From: Coprinopsis marcescibilis
Taxonomy: Eukaryota; Basidiomycota; Agaricomycetes; Agaricales; Psathyrellaceae
Direction: 5' to 3'
DNA length: 64,000 nt
Assembly: GCA_004369085.1 (NCBI GenBank)
Contig: ML210175.1
Location: forward strand, 63,128-127,127
The notes under the pieces were generated by a model. That model saw nothing but the letters and a program-made list of their open reading frames with translations. It was not told where the DNA came from and did not search any database. Below, piece after piece: positions 39,279-47,409 of the stretch (positions are counted from its first letter, which is position 1; every line of letters starts with the position of its first letter). The translations under genes were made by a program, and so were the position numbers.

Positions 39279-39597
39279 GGAGAGGCAGCTTTTTTATGAT
39301 GCATTGCTTGGCGCTCTGTTTCGCTTCTATTCCTTGTATATATCTTGAATTGAATTCCGCGCACCCGATGTATAATTTGTTGTAGTTGTCACGATGATGA
39401 AGGAAATAGCACACGAATTGCTGGACCTAAAAGCACGAATTGGGAAATTGATCGAGGAAGGATTGCGACATGTGGCGTGAACTAGGCGCAACTCACAGAC
39501 TTGGCCAATTATTCCTCATTCCTTGGATGTCATACAAAATTCCAGACTTGCTCAATTCTACCAGAATACTACCGGAGAACCCTAAAGCCTATACAAA
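39279..39597. other. Intergenic region
   Basis: About 320 bp between same-strand genes, taking in the GSK3 3' UTR and the MET30-like promoter. No other feature is seen. Confidence 0.5.
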
Positions 39598-41742
39598 ATG
39601 GCATCAGACCCAAAGCCTTACGTCTGTGATACAATTCCTCCTGCTCGCTTAGCCCAACCACCTGCACAATCTATGGGCTTTGAACACTCTCACTACGAAC
39701 GCGAGACCACGGCGGAGCACGACGACGACGACGACCACCATGACCATCACCACCACCACAGCGACCGAGTGCTTGACCCAGGTTCGCCAGGAGGAACGCC
39801 CCAGCCACCGCCTCGCAAGCTCTGCGTCAGACACCAGCGCATGGCCGACGAAGGCATGAATCTGAAGCTGCAGCAGGCAAGTCTACCGTTTCCTTATAGT
39901 CGAGGATGCCGGCTGACAGGTATACAGTCGCTAGATGCCCTGTCCATCGAGGAGAGAGAGGCCGTCAATGCCGTCTGGAGCAACTTTTCGTCGTCGTCGC
40001 ATCCCAGGCGGGCCCTCATCCTGCAGGGCCTTTTGACGATGTGCTGCTTCTCCCAGCTGTCTCTGCTCACCGAGCAACTCGCACACCTGATACGCATCGA
40101 CCCCTTCCTCGTCCTGCCCCGCGAAATCGCCCTCAAAATTCTCTCGCATCTCGACGCAACCTCGCTCTGCCGTGCAGCCCAGGTCAGCACTCGGTGGCGG
40201 GCTCTCGCAGACGACAACGTTCTCTGGATGGGCATCTGCGAGCAACACATCGGCCAAAAGTGTCACAAGTGTGGCTGGGGTCTGCCCGTGCTCGAGAAGA
40301 AGCGAGTGAACTACCCCGCCACGCAGTCAGCATCACACTCGCCCTCGTCGTCTTCCGGTCTTCCGCTGCCAGCTGTATCCACCGTACCATCACCCTCGAT
40401 ATCCCCACAGCCCTCTTCCACAGCTTCTCTCAAACGGCCAGCCGTTGATTCTTCGGACCTCCTTTTTCCCCCTGTTAAAAGACAGCGATCAGACGACGAG
40501 CCTTCTTCATCACGCTCATTTAATCCCCTTAACACCTCACCTTTCACCCCCATCTCCACTGACCACATACCCCGCGACCCCACACCCACAACCCGTCCCT
40601 GGAAAGCCGTTTACAGCGAACGGATGACTATTGAGCGCAATTGGCGGCGTGGCCGGTGTACGGTCCGAACGCTCAAAGGACACACAGATGGTGTAATGTG
40701 CCTTCAGTTCGACGAGACATTCTCCCATCCAGCCTTCCCCGTACTCATCACCGGGTCATACGACCGCACCGCCAGAGTCTGGAACCTCGAAACAGGCGAA
40801 GAGCTCCATTGCCTCAAAGGCCACACAAGAGCCGTCCGCGCACTCCAGTTTGACGAAGCAAAGCTTATCACTGGAAGCATGGACAACACCATTAAAGTGT
40901 GGGACTGGCGGAGAGGCAAGTGCATACGGACCCTCACCGGCCATACCGAAGGCGTCGTCTGCCTCAACTTTGACTCGAACGTGCTGGCGAGCGGGAGCGT
41001 GGACGCGACCATCAAGGTGTGGAACATGAGGACAGGAAGAGCGTTCACGCTGCGGGGCCACACCGACTGGGTAAATTCCGTTCAGCTCTGGGATTCCCAG
41101 CCCAGCGGAACACGCGTGCAGGCTGATTCATCCTCCTTACTCGATATGTCTGGTGCCAAATCTCCCAACCCCAACAGCAACGCCGCATGCCTAAACATTG
41201 ACCCCGGCAAGATGCTATTCTCAGCGTCTGATGACGGAACTATCAAGCTCTGGGACCTGACCCTCAGGACATGTGTTCGAGTCTTTACCGGTCATGTTGG
41301 ACAGGTTCAGAGCATGAAGCTTCTTGTCGACAACCAGTGTGACACTGAAGAAGAGAAGCTGGCGCCTGCGGATGATGACAGTGCCTCGACATCATCAACG
41401 ACCTCGACTACCACCGAGAATCCCGAAAGCAAACGAAAGAAACCGCTCCTCATCTCTGGCAGTCTCGACAATACCATCCGTCTCTGGGATATCGAAACCG
41501 GCAAGGCCACTGGTGCTCTCTTTGGCCATATTGAAGGCGTCTGGTCTGTTGCGGCCGACAAGCTTCGTGTCGTTAGCGGAAGCCACGACAGAACGATCAA
41601 AGTCTGGAGCCGGGAGGATGGTAAATGTATTGCGACCCTTGTTGGCCACCAGGCTGCGGTCAGTTGCCTTGCTCTCGGTGAAGATAAGATCGTCTCTGGC
41701 AGCGACGATAACGATATTAAAGTTTGGAGCTTCAGCCAGTAG
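39598..41742 (+). CDS. MET30: F-box/WD40 protein of MET30/sconB (sulfur controller) type
   Basis: The substrate receptor of an SCF ubiquitin ligase that in ascomycetes restrains sulfur-assimilation activators and acts in the cell cycle. Reading through gives 714 codons; splicing the apparent GC-AG intron (39877-39927) gives 697. The start is MASDPKPYVCDTIPPARLAQ. A His/Asp run (HDDDDDHHDHHHHHSD) follows, then RRALILQGLLTMCCFSQLSL (MET30 family block before the F-box), the F-box FLVLPREIALKILSHLDATS, and CEQHIGQKCHKCGWGLPVLE, a Cys-rich motif diagnostic of this subfamily. A Ser/Pro-rich linker leads to WKAVYSERMTIERNWRRGRC. Seven WD40 repeats follow (for example LKGHTDGVMCLQF, ITGSYDRTARVWNLETG, ASGSVDATIKVWNMRTG, VSGSHDRTIKVWSREDG). 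The protein ends SGSDDNDIKVWSFSQ. Confidence 0.93.
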   Translation: MASDPKPYVCDTIPPARLAQPPAQSMGFEHSHYERETTAEHDDDDDHHDHHHHHSDRVLDPGSPGGTPQPPPRKLCVRHQRMADEGMNLKLQQASLPFPYSRGCRLTGIQSLDALSIEEREAVNAVWSNFSSSSHPRRALILQGLLTMCCFSQLSLLTEQLAHLIRIDPFLVLPREIALKILSHLDATSLCRAAQVSTRWRALADDNVLWMGICEQHIGQKCHKCGWGLPVLEKKRVNYPATQSASHSPSSSSGLPLPAVSTVPSPSISPQPSSTASLKRPAVDSSDLLFPPVKRQRSDDEPSSSRSFNPLNTSPFTPISTDHIPRDPTPTTRPWKAVYSERMTIERNWRRGRCTVRTLKGHTDGVMCLQFDETFSHPAFPVLITGSYDRTARVWNLETGEELHCLKGHTRAVRALQFDEAKLITGSMDNTIKVWDWRRGKCIRTLTGHTEGVVCLNFDSNVLASGSVDATIKVWNMRTGRAFTLRGHTDWVNSVQLWDSQPSGTRVQADSSSLLDMSGAKSPNPNSNAACLNIDPGKMLFSASDDGTIKLWDLTLRTCVRVFTGHVGQVQSMKLLVDNQCDTEEEKLAPADDDSASTSSTTSTTTENPESKRKKPLLISGSLDNTIRLWDIETGKATGALFGHIEGVWSVAADKLRVVSGSHDRTIKVWSREDGKCIATLVGHQAAVSCLALGEDKIVSGSDDNDIKVWSFSQ
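39877..39927 (+). other. Apparent GC-AG intron in the MET30-like gene (51 nt, in frame)
   Basis: After codons for LKLQQ the sequence reads gcaagt, the standard donor of GC-AG introns, and 51 nt later ends ggtatacag before SLDALSIEERE. A ctgac branch-point-like motif lies 7 nt upstream of the acceptor. It contains no stop and its length is a multiple of three, so retention would insert 17 residues. Confidence 0.6.
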
Positions 41743-42462: not shown

Positions 42463-45400
42463 CTATCTGGTCGTCCGAAATTTCTTCGGTGTGCCCATTC
42501 CTAGAGTCTGCTTTTCCAATACCCGTTGTCGCACGAGCTGGGTTTCCCCGGCCTCGAGAGCTATACTTCGGGCCATCAGCTCGTCATCCGCCGAATCGCT
42601 CACAGTGACATTTGCGAGCTGATGTTCAAGATAGGCAAGCTGACCCTGGTCCCGATATTGCTCAAGATCTGGTGGCTTAAAGGCCAAAACGTCGTTGAAC
42701 TGATCCACAAACTTGACGTAACGTTGAAAGTTGATCAAGTGACGGCGTTCGACTTCCACCACTCTCGGGTTTTCGACCAGGACGGTGTGAAGCTGCTTGA
42801 GATGAACAGCTGTCACGAGTTCGTAAACTATTAATATCCAAACCAAGGGGGTCATGTGGATATGGATCCTCACCTAGCCAAGGGATGCAGTACTCTGAGT
42901 ACTCGGGGTCTACCACAGTTTCCAGCTCTTGTCGATATGCAGAATGATTGCCATGAGGCTGTATAACAGACACGATGTTAGCTAAGGCCTCTGTCATCTT
43001 CGCAGGTAACAGGTCCTTCGTCAGCGCCAATCGTTCCACCGGGGTTGAATTTAGTGCGATAGCAATGGCGACAAGAGAGCTGTAATTTCGCAATTTGCGA
43101 CATTCCTGTTCCACCCGGCAGCGTTAGTAAAAGATGCACATCTCCTCTAGGAAGGCAGCAAGATGCTCACCAGCGCAGTATGGATGTAAAACTTGATAAC
43201 TCCCATTCGGAACTTGACATCATCGGAGACGAGCACCGAGTGCTTTATCCAGTGGATGAGTTTATTGTTGACTGTGCATGCTATATCGATGTGATTCTGA
43301 TAACCACTAATAGGTTGTCGAAGTTGATAGGCAAGATAGTCGCACGGCATGATCTTGCGGTACTTGTCGCCCTCTAACAGAGTGAGACCAATGGCGAGAT
43401 CCCGAGGGTTCGTCATGGCTTTCATCTCCATCATTCTCCGTTCTGGCGACATAAACGATGTAGATTCCAGTTCTTCCGCTTGTCTCTCCTCCTCCGTCTG
43501 TGGGGCCAAGTTAGCCACAAGGAGCTAAACGCTGTTAACCTTAGATAGGCTTACCCTCTCTTGGATCAATTGCAACAGATCATTGGCTTTATCCACCATC
43601 GTTGACGATGTCTTGAGCCGAACAGCAGCTTCCACGAAAGTTCTCATTTGCCAGAGCAGTTCATCATTGACAGGGAGATGACGACTGGACAGCCAGTGGA
43701 TGATAACCATGAAAATTCTGTGTGAAGGTTCGGTCAGAATCATGAAAAGTTGAAGTCAATCAAGTGCTAGAGAAACTGACGTGTACTGGAGCCCAACACG
43801 ATCTTCGGGGCGTCGACTCTGCGATGATACAGTTGAAGCTTTCTCTTCCTCGTCAAATCGGCGAGTTAAAATAGCAAACAAGTCTTCCGGTGTGATGAAA
43901 TCGATACATGCTGTAAGCATTACGTCTCGATACTCCAGGTCCTTTCGAAGATCTATCAAATAGTTATGAAACTCATTCGTGCGCAGCAATTCGAAGAACT
44001 CACTGAAGTTGTTGATGAGTCGCTCTATCAAGCCTTCCAGTGTCCCAGCCATGACCATACCCCGAGTATTCGTGTACACAATCAAGTCTGGATTGAGTAT
44101 AGCTTCTCTGAGCGGTCCAGCCATATGTATCCCGGATTCAGTGGAGAACACGCTAAGAGCGGGCCTGATCGCAGCTGTATCAACAGATAGTGTTCTTCCA
44201 GTCTTTGGAAGTGTTGGTGGCATACCGTTCCGCATAGAAGGCGGGGAAGAGGACAAGTGAGATATCTCGAGACGAGGGGCGCTCGGATATTCAATGCGAA
44301 GGGAGCTGTCGATGTTGTTAAAAGATGAGCTGGGGGAGGGCGACGGTCGGATAGCGCTTGACGGTTCCAGGAAACCGTTTCCATTGCTGTTCCGGCGAAT
44401 TGTATCCCCCCTGTTCGGTAGTCGGCCGGGTGACTGCGGGGAGTACCTAGCGGAAGGAGGGGAGGATGAGAACCCATTTAGAGGAGATATCACGTCGTCC
44501 TCATCAATTTTGCCTTTATTAGCAATCGGAATGGTGACCTTGGGCCTTGCAGTTGCAGAAGACCCGCTGTTGCTGCTCCCGCTAGTTGAAGGTCGTTCAC
44601 TGGAACGAGTGGTTTTCACAGAGAATATAGAGAAAGCTTTCCGAGTTCCGCCAGTTGTGGACGTCGATCCTTTAAAAGAACCTGATTCTGCCGCAAATTA
44701 TTAGGAACGCGTACAAATCAGGATGAAACGAAGCTTACTTGGAGAAGGTCCGCCCCTGATCTCATCCAGCTGAATCCGGATATCCTGGATCGTAGGACGC
44801 GACTCTGGCTTCTTCCAACATCTCTTGATCAACGACCACATGGGGTCATTCAGCCCATTGTTCAAATAAACTGTACCGAGTGGACGTTTGGGGGTTTCTC
44901 CTTTGTCGAGTTCTCTCATCACATTGATGTCCCGAGGAACGCCAGCGAAGGGCTGCTCTCCCGTTAGAAGCTCGAGGAAGGTCATGGCAGTGGACCATAT
45001 GTCGGATTTCTTCGAAACAGTTCCTGTCTGTCGAATGAGTTCCGGCGCGAACCATCGCGGATTGATGTTGGGCGATGACGTCATTCCTCGTCCACACTGA
45101 CGGCGTTATGTTAGTCGAAGCTAGTACGCAATTCTCGGCTTGAAGCTTGCTCACATCTTCAAGAAACTTTGAAAGCCCAAAATCAGACAGGCGCGCAACG
45201 CCATTCGCTGATATCAAAACATTGGCCTAAATATATGTGTGAATAATGTCCAGGCACCATCGAATCGGAACTACTCACCCCACGCAAGTCACCGTGGACT
45301 ATGTCTTGCGAGTGCAAATACTCCAAGCCTACCGATAATCGATAAGCATTTCGGTCGAGAAGAATGGTTCATGTTTACCTATCACGATTTCAGATAACAG

Positions 45401-46915
45401 CTTCAAACGGTTGCAAGCGGGGTTCTCTTGGACATAATTGATGGCGGTCCCGCCCTCCATCCAGGGACTAACCTACGGACCTATGAGCTTGAAACCAACA
45501 TCGGTAAAGCAGCCAAACTCACGGAGAACACGTGGTCTCCGACATACGCGATGCCGAATAATGGGAGGATGTTCGGATGGTCGAATTTTCGCCAGATGGA
45601 AACCTCGCGCTTGAAATGCTATACATGATTGATCGTAATTATGCTTTTCAGACGCCAAAGAGCATGCGAGCTTACGCGTTGAACATTTGGGTTGTTTGGG
45701 AGGGCCCTCGGCAGACGAAGTGCGACCTTAACAGAAGCTACAGCAATGATGATAAAAGACCAGGGTTTGACCCACCTTCTCTTTCCCCAGCCAACGTCCT
45801 GATATGGCGATGAAGTCATAGTCAGTAAGACTCATACATCATTGAACCGGCAGTATCGCCTTACCCTTGAATACGTCGTTGTACGTCCCGATGAACACAG
45901 CATGTTCACTCTCCTTCGTGACTTGACCAGTGACTAACGGTATTGTGCTATCAATTGCTGTATCTGTGGAAGAGTGACGTCCCACTTACGGTCGGTGAGA
46001 GGGGGAAGCTTGGATGTTCTGGAATGCAGGAACCAGAGACCTTCGCGAAAACTTTCCTTCTGCTGTACCGGTATCGTACGATCCATGAGTTCCTGTAAGT
46101 AGGTAATGACGTTAGAATATGCGGGAAGGTTTTGGGGCAGGAGAAACTCGCTGTTTGAAGCTGCTCCATGACCTCTTCAACGGGGTGTGGAGAGGTCATG
46201 CTTAAAAGGTTTTGCATCTGTGCGTGGTTCTGGACAATTGTTTCGAGTAATCCGCGGATTTCCACCCTATCTCTTTCTTGTGCGGCCAAGGAATCGTTGA
46301 ATCCTTTGCGAAACTCCAAGCTCGCTTGAATCTGCAAATCGCCTGAATAGCCGTGGTTGCTGCTAGCACAGCTAAAACTCACACTGTACTTCATCATGGC
46401 CCCATCTATCTCCCGCTGAAACCGATCAATAGCCTCTTTGATCTCGGTCTGCTGAAGGAATGCCTTTAAGGGGGGTAGCAGTGCCCACTCTTTGACTTTG
46501 CTGTCGATGCTCAGAAGTAAGCTAGAAGGAACCTGGTTAGTCATCTCCGAGGGCGAGGATAAAGTTGCTCATCCTACTTACTCCTCCAGCTCACTGGCGA
46601 AGTCGTTCGGATGCTGATCGTGCATCCCCTCCCTCAACGCAAGAACCAGCTTCACACAGCGGGCACTCAGATCGCCGCATTGTTGCTGTGAAGATACTCA
46701 TGTTCAGCAGGGTCGCAAATTGTGACAGATAACAGATATACCTTGTACACCTTCACATGCTGCACGCTCTGATAAGTAGATGTTACTAGGGACAGACGAG
46801 AAACCAACGAACGTCGGTGGTGTGCACTCAATCCATGCAATTGATACTCACAGACGGTTACAAGGACATCAAGAGCTGGGACTGGGGCGAGACTGAGCAG
46901 ATCCTTCAGGCTCAT
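42463..46915 (-). CDS. MLKL-NTD-like helical bundle - degenerate TKL-type kinase - RasGEF fusion protein
   Basis: A many-exon gene of roughly 1,150 residues. The start MSLKDLLSLAPVPALDVLVT opens a helical bundle (SVQHVKVYKQQCGDLSARCV, KLVLALREGMHDQHPNDFAS, AFLQQTEIKEAIDRFQREID, RKGFNDSLAAQERDRVEIRG) with the pattern of fungal MLKL-NTD/HeLo-like domains. A TKL-like kinase follows at about 44720-45930. The ATP loop reads SEHAVFIGTYNDVFKGRW, keeping one of three glycines, and the beta-3 Lys is Arg (EKVALRLPRA). The C-lobe is well kept: GLEYLHSQDIVHGDLRGANV, RLSDFGLSKFLED, NPRWFAPELIRQTG. A Ser-rich linker leads to RasGEF-N (GTLEGLIERLINNFSEFFEL) and the catalytic RasGEF domain (NPRDLAIGLTLLEGDKYRKI, KFRMGVIKFYIHTALECRKL, NSTPVERLALTKDLLP, NFQRYVKFVDQFND). 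It ends GMGTPKKFRTTR, TGA at 42463-42465. I infer that the bundle and kinase regulate Ras activation. Confidence 0.82.
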
Positions 46916-47304
46916 GAAAGCAGAAGGGAGGAAGGGCAGGGGCTATATGGTGGGAGAAGGCAAGAGCATAATCAAACCGCCAGCGTCTATACAACCCCTT
47001 CACTTGTTCATGGGACTGTCTGCGGCGCGGTCCCGTGTATTGTATTGAGATCACCACCCAAAGCCGAATGCAGTGTTCTGCGCCAATTAGGGATGCTCAG
47101 GAACAGGTTCCTGACAGAGATTGTTTGCTGCGGAGACATAAAAGGATATAATGCCCTATAATGCCATTCTGGAAGCAGTATATGTTGGACATTTAATCAA
47201 GAACTTATGATTCTGAGAAAGAGAAGAATTGTATTGGAGGGCAGTGTCTGCGATCAAGGGCCACGCTCAGTATGTGTGGGACAACTTGCTGTCAACACCC
47301 TGCT
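46916..47304. other. Intergenic region between the RasGEF gene start and tRNA-Leu
   Basis: About 390 bp expected to carry the promoter of the bundle-kinase-RasGEF gene. No coding sequence is supported on either strand. Confidence 0.45.
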
Positions 47305-47400
47305 GGTAGCGTGGCCGAGTTGGTCTAAGGCGTTGGATTTAAGTTATTCTTGATTCCCAATGGGCGCAAGTCCGCGCGAGTTCGAACCTCGCCGCTACCA
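47305..47400 (+). tRNA. tRNA-Leu(UAA) with short intron
   Basis: The acceptor arm GGTAGCG (47305-47311) pairs with CGCTACC (47393-47399), followed by discriminator A. The A box TGGCCGAGTTGG and B box GAGTTCGAACC (47378-47388) are present. The anticodon TAA lies at 47340-47342 in the loop TTTAAG. The long variable arm (GGGC-GCAA-GTCC) is a class II feature fitting Leu. An 11 nt insert (47344-47354), placed just after the base 3' of the anticodon, fits a canonical tRNA intron; its removal leaves 85 nt. With this fold the last anticodon-stem pair is A-C. A T-run follows as Pol III terminator. Confidence 0.93.
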
Positions 47401-47409
47401 TTTCTATCC

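Follow-up and report, generated by a model that had tools for sequence, protein, structure and literature searches.

MLKL, the effector of animal necroptosis that permeabilises membranes once phosphorylated, has a kinase-like domain behind an N-terminal helical bundle and brace, and its chain ends there (4btf, 6lk5). In the available part of one study, basidiomycete MLKL-like (BaMLKL), HeLo and HELL bundles are described at the N-termini of NLR proteins (PMC9815663); the accessible text of another links MLKL-related bundles to cell death in fungi and gives one sentence to HELL domains on kinase or pseudokinase proteins (PMC12881547). The same portions of both sources discuss MLKL-type bundles as cell-death executioners. 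Among Ras exchange factors, Cdc25 and SOS (7nzz, 1bkd) carry a REM domain followed by a CDC25 homology domain. Here we describe a gene of Coprinopsis marcescibilis that encodes an MLKL-like bundle, a degenerate kinase and a RasGEF on a single chain. The gene occupies positions 46915..42463, on the minus strand, of a 64,000-nucleotide stretch (the window) of contig ML210175.1 (assembly GCA_004369085.1, positions 63,128 to 127,127). From its N-terminus the protein has a bundle and a probable brace, then a TKL-type kinase, a Ser/Pro-rich linker and the RasGEF_N and RasGEF domains (Table 1).

The exon model had 20 exons and gave one 1,123-aa protein. Its 19 introns measured 49-66 nt; 18 had GT-AG ends and one (46151-46093) had GC-AG ends. 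Excision of the intron 44003-43953, which was revealed by relatives, raised the RasGEF_N score from 29.0 to 36.8 bits. The best database match was the NCBI model of the same gene (P0001, 'ras GEF', Coprinopsis marcescibilis), with 95% identity over 100% of the query when a 1,140-aa version that kept this intron was used as the query. P0001 was without the 51-nt beta-3 exon (45676-45726) and nearly all coding sequence of the 44-nt exon 2 (46742-46785); both exons, with splice sites that can be used, can be read in the DNA. Because the beta-3 exon is omitted from the NCBI model, Arg246 is invisible there.

Kinase and RasGEF were joined in the gene by a 51-nt intron between the kinase and linker exons, whose excision kept the frame. 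The main protein search passed 349 proteins, of which the best 120 were listed, and the first 54 (P0001-P0054) were taken as the family. Among these, 53 paired PF00617 with a kinase Pfam domain and the remaining one (P0043) paired PF00618 with a kinase, showing that the joining is not due to chance. Further, five intron-free frames of relatives, from a source marked 'lgn' with contigs of 3.6-5.8 kb, spanned the kinase-RasGEF junction. Four of them (P0002, P0026, P0028 and P0037) were unbroken over 1,053-1,247 aa and covered all 19 intron positions of the gene; P0024 (792 aa, 19 member sequences) covered the last ten, and inserts near the covered positions were no longer than 6 residues. We read these frames as assembled spliced transcripts, which is the sense we presume for 'lgn', because introns like these would close such frames in DNA. 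At the kinase-linker junction the adjoining linker residues of the frames aligned poorly or only in part. Two separate genes were ruled out by the fused relatives, the in-frame junction intron and the intron-free frames. The preliminary description of the locus had proposed a bundle, a degenerate kinase and a RasGEF in one polypeptide; this was confirmed as a whole by the exon model, the Pfam matches and the family. Its coordinates were right and the strand, which it left unstated, is minus. The two separate transcripts that it had named as contrary evidence were not what the five frames pointed to, and the balance leans towards one transcript.

The same three-domain order, which the preliminary description had suggested seeking in other Agaricomycetes, was found throughout the family. 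A bundle profile (A1) built from the C. marcescibilis protein and 18 relatives (19 members) matched 52 of the 54 proteins, including 18 that were members of the profile, and missed only P0024, which is without its N-terminus, and P0049; it gave no match to the 66 listed proteins of lower rank. The relatives came from many Agaricales and from Plicaturopsis, Peniophora, Auriscalpium, Coniferiporia, Phellinidium and Punctularia, which we take to span five orders. A second search (1,934 passed, best 120 listed, only chains of about 270-850 aa) added nine bundle proteins, one of which, from Tulasnella (Cantharellales), is partial and has the bundle, the kinase and RasGEF_N. Most of these nine look like incomplete models, and true shorter forms are possible. 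A recent, species-specific fusion was ruled out by relatives in many genera, the partial Tulasnella protein included, and the fusion is, as judged from these proteins, old within Agaricomycetes. A word-based search with residues 1-215 of P0005 returned only family members (10 including the query). The C. marcescibilis genome showed no second copy of the architecture among the best candidates, which alone were scored; the nearest kinase to another RasGEF match lay about 22 kb from it (C149).

There was good sequence evidence that the N-terminus is an MLKL-type bundle. Searched against the PDB, profile A1 gave 12 matches at E<=5, of which the first seven were MLKL (4btf at 1.7e-6, the others at 0.0015-0.006) and the next was a respiratory-chain subunit (E 0.05); no HET-S-type chain was among the 12. 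The alignment with 4btf placed profile positions 20-180 on chain positions 14-188, from the bundle into the brace, and was weak in the brace part. All 19 members matched MLKL_N at E<=1 (best 3.8e-8) and the next families were matched by 6/19; SesA was matched by one member (0.035) and HeLo by none among the 25 of 46 Pfam families shown. These matches upheld the MLKL_NTD-like bundle of the preliminary description. The C. marcescibilis protein alone scored below the MLKL_N cut-off of 27 bits, with 12.5 bits at full length (E 0.11, aa 22-114) and 16.1 bits for aa 1-211 (E 0.008). Cys39, Trp83 and PP207-208 were invariant in bundle and brace (19/19 members), and the bundle had a hydrophobic N-terminal segment in the 11 of 19 rows read. 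The model of P0035 (Leucoagaricus) contained two copies of the bundle (3-196 and 296-494), by duplication or annotation error. Elsewhere in the C. marcescibilis genome there were three further MLKL_N matches above the Pfam cut-off (L021, L022 and L023); two of these lay in long reading frames on C52, separated by 3.7 kb.

The domain that follows was recognized by two kinase profiles, both above cut-off, at aa 227-472 (PF00069, 134.8 bits; PF07714, 134.6 bits). As the preliminary description had stated, HGDLRGAN (aa 334), DFG (aa 354) and APE (aa 380) were intact, the glycine loop FIGTYNDV retained one Gly of three, and the beta-3 strand read VALR, with Arg at aa 246. Thus the catalytic Asp, the Asn, DFG and APE of a competent kinase were present, and the beta-3 Lys and GxGxxG were absent. 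In the 54 top listed proteins the beta-3 residue was R in 37, K in 3, G in 1 and W in 1, with 12 unread (P0001 among them). The first loop Gly was found in 0/54 (5 unread), the second in 48/54 (3 unread) and the third in 2/54 (3 unread). The alpha-C Glu was kept in 45/54 and the DFG-Asp in 43/54, the latter being replaced (G, E, N, H, Y or S) in 10 and falling in a gap in one. Arg in 37 of the 42 readable rows ruled out a misread or a sequencing slip at beta-3, and on this alignment the Arg is a family trait.

The family differed in this respect from other kinases recovered by the same searches. A wider set, made of the 54 proteins and the nine bundle-matched proteins of the second search, gave a kinase match for 62 of 63 (66 domains), with beta-3 R in 40, K in 7, G in 1, W in 1 and a gap in 17. 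By contrast, the 173 other kinases listed (207 domains) had K in 168 of 177 readable domains, R in 3 and other residues in 6, with 30 gaps (Fisher test, R versus not-R, 5e-32, relatedness ignored). The first Gly was present in only 30/130 readable domains of these other kinases and the third in 100/153. It is therefore loss of the third Gly together with the beta-3 Arg that marks the family, because the first Gly is usually missing in other kinases too. WNK kinases carry their Lys at another place; none of the 54 proteins had Lys at the third-glycine position, and a relocation of the WNK type was thus ruled out. Arg for the beta-3 Lys is the standard kinase-dead change, and the domain is likely a pseudokinase. 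Orthologues with an ordinary VAxK and GxGxxG, held by the preliminary description to be the sign of a misread, were found only by halves: Lys was present in seven relatives, whereas among the 54 top listed proteins the loop lacked its first Gly in every readable row and its third in all but two.

These seven Lys relatives belonged to Coniferiporia, Phellinidium, Punctularia, Mycena (two, P0122 and P0128), Tulasnella and Ceratobasidium, and in such lineages the domain may have remained a kinase; Arg predominated among the Agaricales covered. The tree comprised 42 of 55 rows: the C. marcescibilis protein, 40 of the 42 rows readable at beta-3, and P0052, which was unreadable there. Left out were P0021 and P0049 (both readable), other rows, and the two Mycena proteins. 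It was built by a quick method without bootstrap and with the beta-3 column masked, its designated outgroup was not set apart from the rest by any single branch, and P0054 and P0050 had very long branches. Four state changes at beta-3 were placed on it: K occurred in Coniferiporia, Phellinidium and Punctularia, W in Peniophora, and R in Plicaturopsis and all Agaricales of the tree except Fistulina (G). Against conventional taxonomy, the tree was broadly as expected under vertical descent, and Lys was probably the ancestral state. However, the site is labile, because the Mycena proteins, which lie within Agaricales, have Lys, and three kinases of other architecture, P0123 (Rickenella), P0125 (Ceratobasidium) and P0227 (Tulasnella), have Arg; Lys is thus not confined to early-branching orders. 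P0227 joins RhoGAP and kinase; P0123 carries two kinase copies, and in the second of these both the Arg and the LTGQV start of the family are present.

The C-terminal half contained the RasGEF-N and catalytic RasGEF domains previously noted, both above cut-off (RasGEF_N 36.8 bits, cut-off 28.3; RasGEF 126.6 bits, cut-off 23.1). Its best PDB sequence matches were Cell division control protein 25 (7nzz, 8.6e-17) and SOS1 (1.6e-14), with alignments of about 360 residues that took in the REM domain. The Trp of PWL was kept in 52/55 rows, C. marcescibilis included. Ras-type exchange is likely. A text pattern for linker length matched only 32/55 rows and was not used as a count.

Set beside the described systems, the protein shares with MLKL an N-terminal bundle, which aligned in order and on into a probable brace, and a kinase-like domain behind it, and differs in the linker, RasGEF_N and RasGEF that follow. 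The MLKL pseudokinase keeps its beta-3 Lys and has lost the HRD-Asp and DFG, so that the losses seen here, with HGD and DFG present and Arg at beta-3, are roughly the reverse. Because the kinase losses differ in this way, we regard the protein as MLKL-like in layout and not an MLKL. Unlike Cdc25 and SOS, whose domain order it shares, it has the exchange module fused behind a kinase. The BaMLKL, HeLo and HELL proteins have a related bundle at the N-terminus, but on NLRs in the part of PMC9815663 available, and not on a kinase-RasGEF chain. For the fungal HELL kinase and pseudokinase proteins no RasGEF is mentioned in the text of PMC12881547 at hand, where 'rasgef' occurs 0 times. The 'TKL/TKL-ccin protein kinase' of Coprinopsis cinerea (P0005) is a relative with the same modules and the beta-3 Arg; its label covers the kinase only, and its model seems to be without part of the RasGEF. 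Papers on TKL-ccin, in the portions accessible, name the class and not demonstrably this gene. The combination was not mentioned in the available sections of PMC10197012 or PMC3937382 ('rasgef' 0, 'mlkl' 0 in the latter). As far as their accessible text goes, a Wolfiporia genome paper (PMC8242266) lists RasGEF among signalling genes up in sclerotia, without a fusion, and a Trichoderma paper (PMC10204303) has no such fusion. No paper describing bundle, kinase and RasGEF together was found, a weak absence since subscription papers lay mostly outside the coverage. Scans with NCBIfam and PADLOC yielded little beyond generic kinase matches, and the full-length family profile was swamped by kinases when searched against the PDB.

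The arrangement suggests that parts of the necroptosis type make up a Ras switch. Our preferred reading, to which we give a probability of about 0.4, is a conserved signalling protein of Agaricomycetes in which the degenerate kinase would act as a switch, the bundle would serve self-association or membrane contact, and the RasGEF would be the output. The kinase domain would mostly be a ligand- or phosphorylation-sensitive switch, not an enzyme, and the role of the bundle would resemble that in MLKL-type proteins. Once bundle and pseudokinase changed state, the RasGEF would be brought to Ras at the membrane or freed from autoinhibition, and the output would be Ras-GTP, instead of or besides membrane damage. 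Control of the kinase by the bundle, and gating of the RasGEF by the kinase, are what we infer from the domain order. The preliminary description had likewise proposed that a bundle-controlled pseudokinase could gate Ras activation. The architecture and the degenerate kinase on which it built were upheld and are conserved across species; its comparison with MLKL suits the bundle and probable brace but fails for the pattern of kinase losses.

Several observations weigh against the Ras-switch reading. The HGD Asp (54/54), the catalytic-loop Asn (52/54) and the APE Glu (54/54) are kept beyond the need of a pure scaffold, and the seven Lys survivors include Mycena species within Agaricales. The retained HGD and APE would allow some remaining catalysis, or ATP binding that serves as a switch signal. 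The bundle (aa 1-120) had a net charge of -3 to +2 in the 11 of 19 rows read, with -3 in C. marcescibilis, whereas the MLKL bundle is basic. Six of the nine bundle proteins from the second search (P0121, P0122, P0124, P0126, P0128 and P0140) had no RasGEF Pfam match, and P0150 had no kinase Pfam listed. At the catalytic-hairpin positions T935, L938 and E942 of SOS, C. marcescibilis has K, H and V, and the residues differ within the family; at SOS position N879 C. marcescibilis has N, which is found in only 7/55 rows. Exchange activity is therefore not to be assumed, because the hairpin residues are unconserved.

The retained catalytic residues and the Lys relatives, together with a DFG that is mostly kept and a Ser-rich linker directly behind the kinase, would fit a Ser/Thr kinase that is still active, has the linker or the RasGEF as its substrate and is only slowed by the beta-3 Arg and the short loop. 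We consider this somewhat unlikely, given the kinase-dead nature of the Arg, the replaced DFG-Asp (10/53 readable rows) and the lack of a substitute Lys at the third glycine. It is improbable that the RasGEF is the only functional output and that bundle and kinase are a decayed scaffold, with the Arg fixed by drift; replacement of the DFG-Asp in several rows and the K of two Mycena and G of Fistulina at beta-3 would agree with decay, but elsewhere in the Agaricales of the tree beta-3 is always Arg, the HGD Asp and APE Glu are without exception, and Cys39, Trp83 and PP207-208 are invariant. A little more improbable still is a membrane-permeabilising death effector, mainly a fungal MLKL with the RasGEF as regulator or sensor. 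The MLKL-like bundle and brace, the hydrophobic N-terminal segment and the role of related bundles in fungal cell death (PMC12881547, available part) speak for it; the near-neutral bundle charge speaks against it, and so do the lack of a second copy among the candidates scored in this genome and the largely species-like tree, which, judged from copies and tree, are unlike a polymorphic allorecognition locus. An artefact in which neighbouring MLKL-like kinase and RasGEF genes were read as one, for which the added bundle proteins without a RasGEF or kinase match could be cited (several evidently incomplete models), is very improbable in view of the fused relatives, the intron-free frames and the in-frame intron.

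Table 1. Features of the bundle-kinase-RasGEF gene, in positions of the window
Feature	Positions	Strand	Basis or remark
Whole gene	42463..46915	-	20 exons, 1,123 aa; exon model
MLKL-like helical bundle and probable brace, exons 1-6, aa 1-211	45991..46915	-	PDB profile search, MLKL_N matches
Kinase domain, aa about 212-480	44746..45990	-	PF00069 and PF07714 at aa 227-472
Degenerate glycine loop IGTYND, aa 226-231, in exon 7	45875..45892	-	Sequence position
Exon 9, 51 nt, beta-3 strand VALRLPR	45676..45726	-	Arg246 codon 45717-45715
Kinase-to-linker intron, 51 nt	44688..44738	-	Excision joins kinase exon and linker exon in frame
Ser/Pro-rich linker, aa about 483-676	44107..44739	-	Weakly conserved; length differs between relatives
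RasGEF_N (REM), aa 694-781	43678..44055	-	PF00618, 36.8 bits
RasGEF (CDC25 homology), aa 856-1039	42718..43398	-	PF00617, 126.6 bits

The next gene upstream (about 48542-47566, minus strand) had repeated FKP[ST]RRVR..PGG motifs and no Pfam match in the one reading frame searched. Its matches were to the additional N-terminal parts of P0017 and P0040 and to short stretches in the middle of P0035. In these three models annotation seems to have fused two neighbouring genes, and by the same matches the two genes still adjoin in Candolleomyces and Panaeolus and perhaps in Leucoagaricus. A tRNA-Leu (AAG) of 98 nt, probably intron-bearing from its length, lay just upstream of the gene (47304-47401, plus strand). 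Downstream, an open reading frame of 718 aa (39586-41742, plus strand) had F-box-like and WD40 Pfam matches.

A more specific form of the Ras-switch reading, which we hold to be rather unlikely, is that in mushroom fungi a device of the necroptosis type, made of MLKL-like bundle, brace and pseudokinase, was turned into a membrane-gated Ras activator, in which oligomerisation of the bundle at the membrane, released by the Arg-beta-3 pseudokinase, would lead to Ras signalling in development or a non-self response and not to killing. If this were true, the change from Lys to Arg would mark where an active kinase became a switch, and the Lys lineages would be living intermediates. Living species with Lys genes and with Arg genes offer a clean test of the origin of the pseudokinase, and Coprinopsis cinerea, a tractable model mushroom, has an Arg-bearing relative (P0005). 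A conserved fusion of bundle, degenerate kinase and RasGEF would show an MLKL-type module controlling growth signalling.

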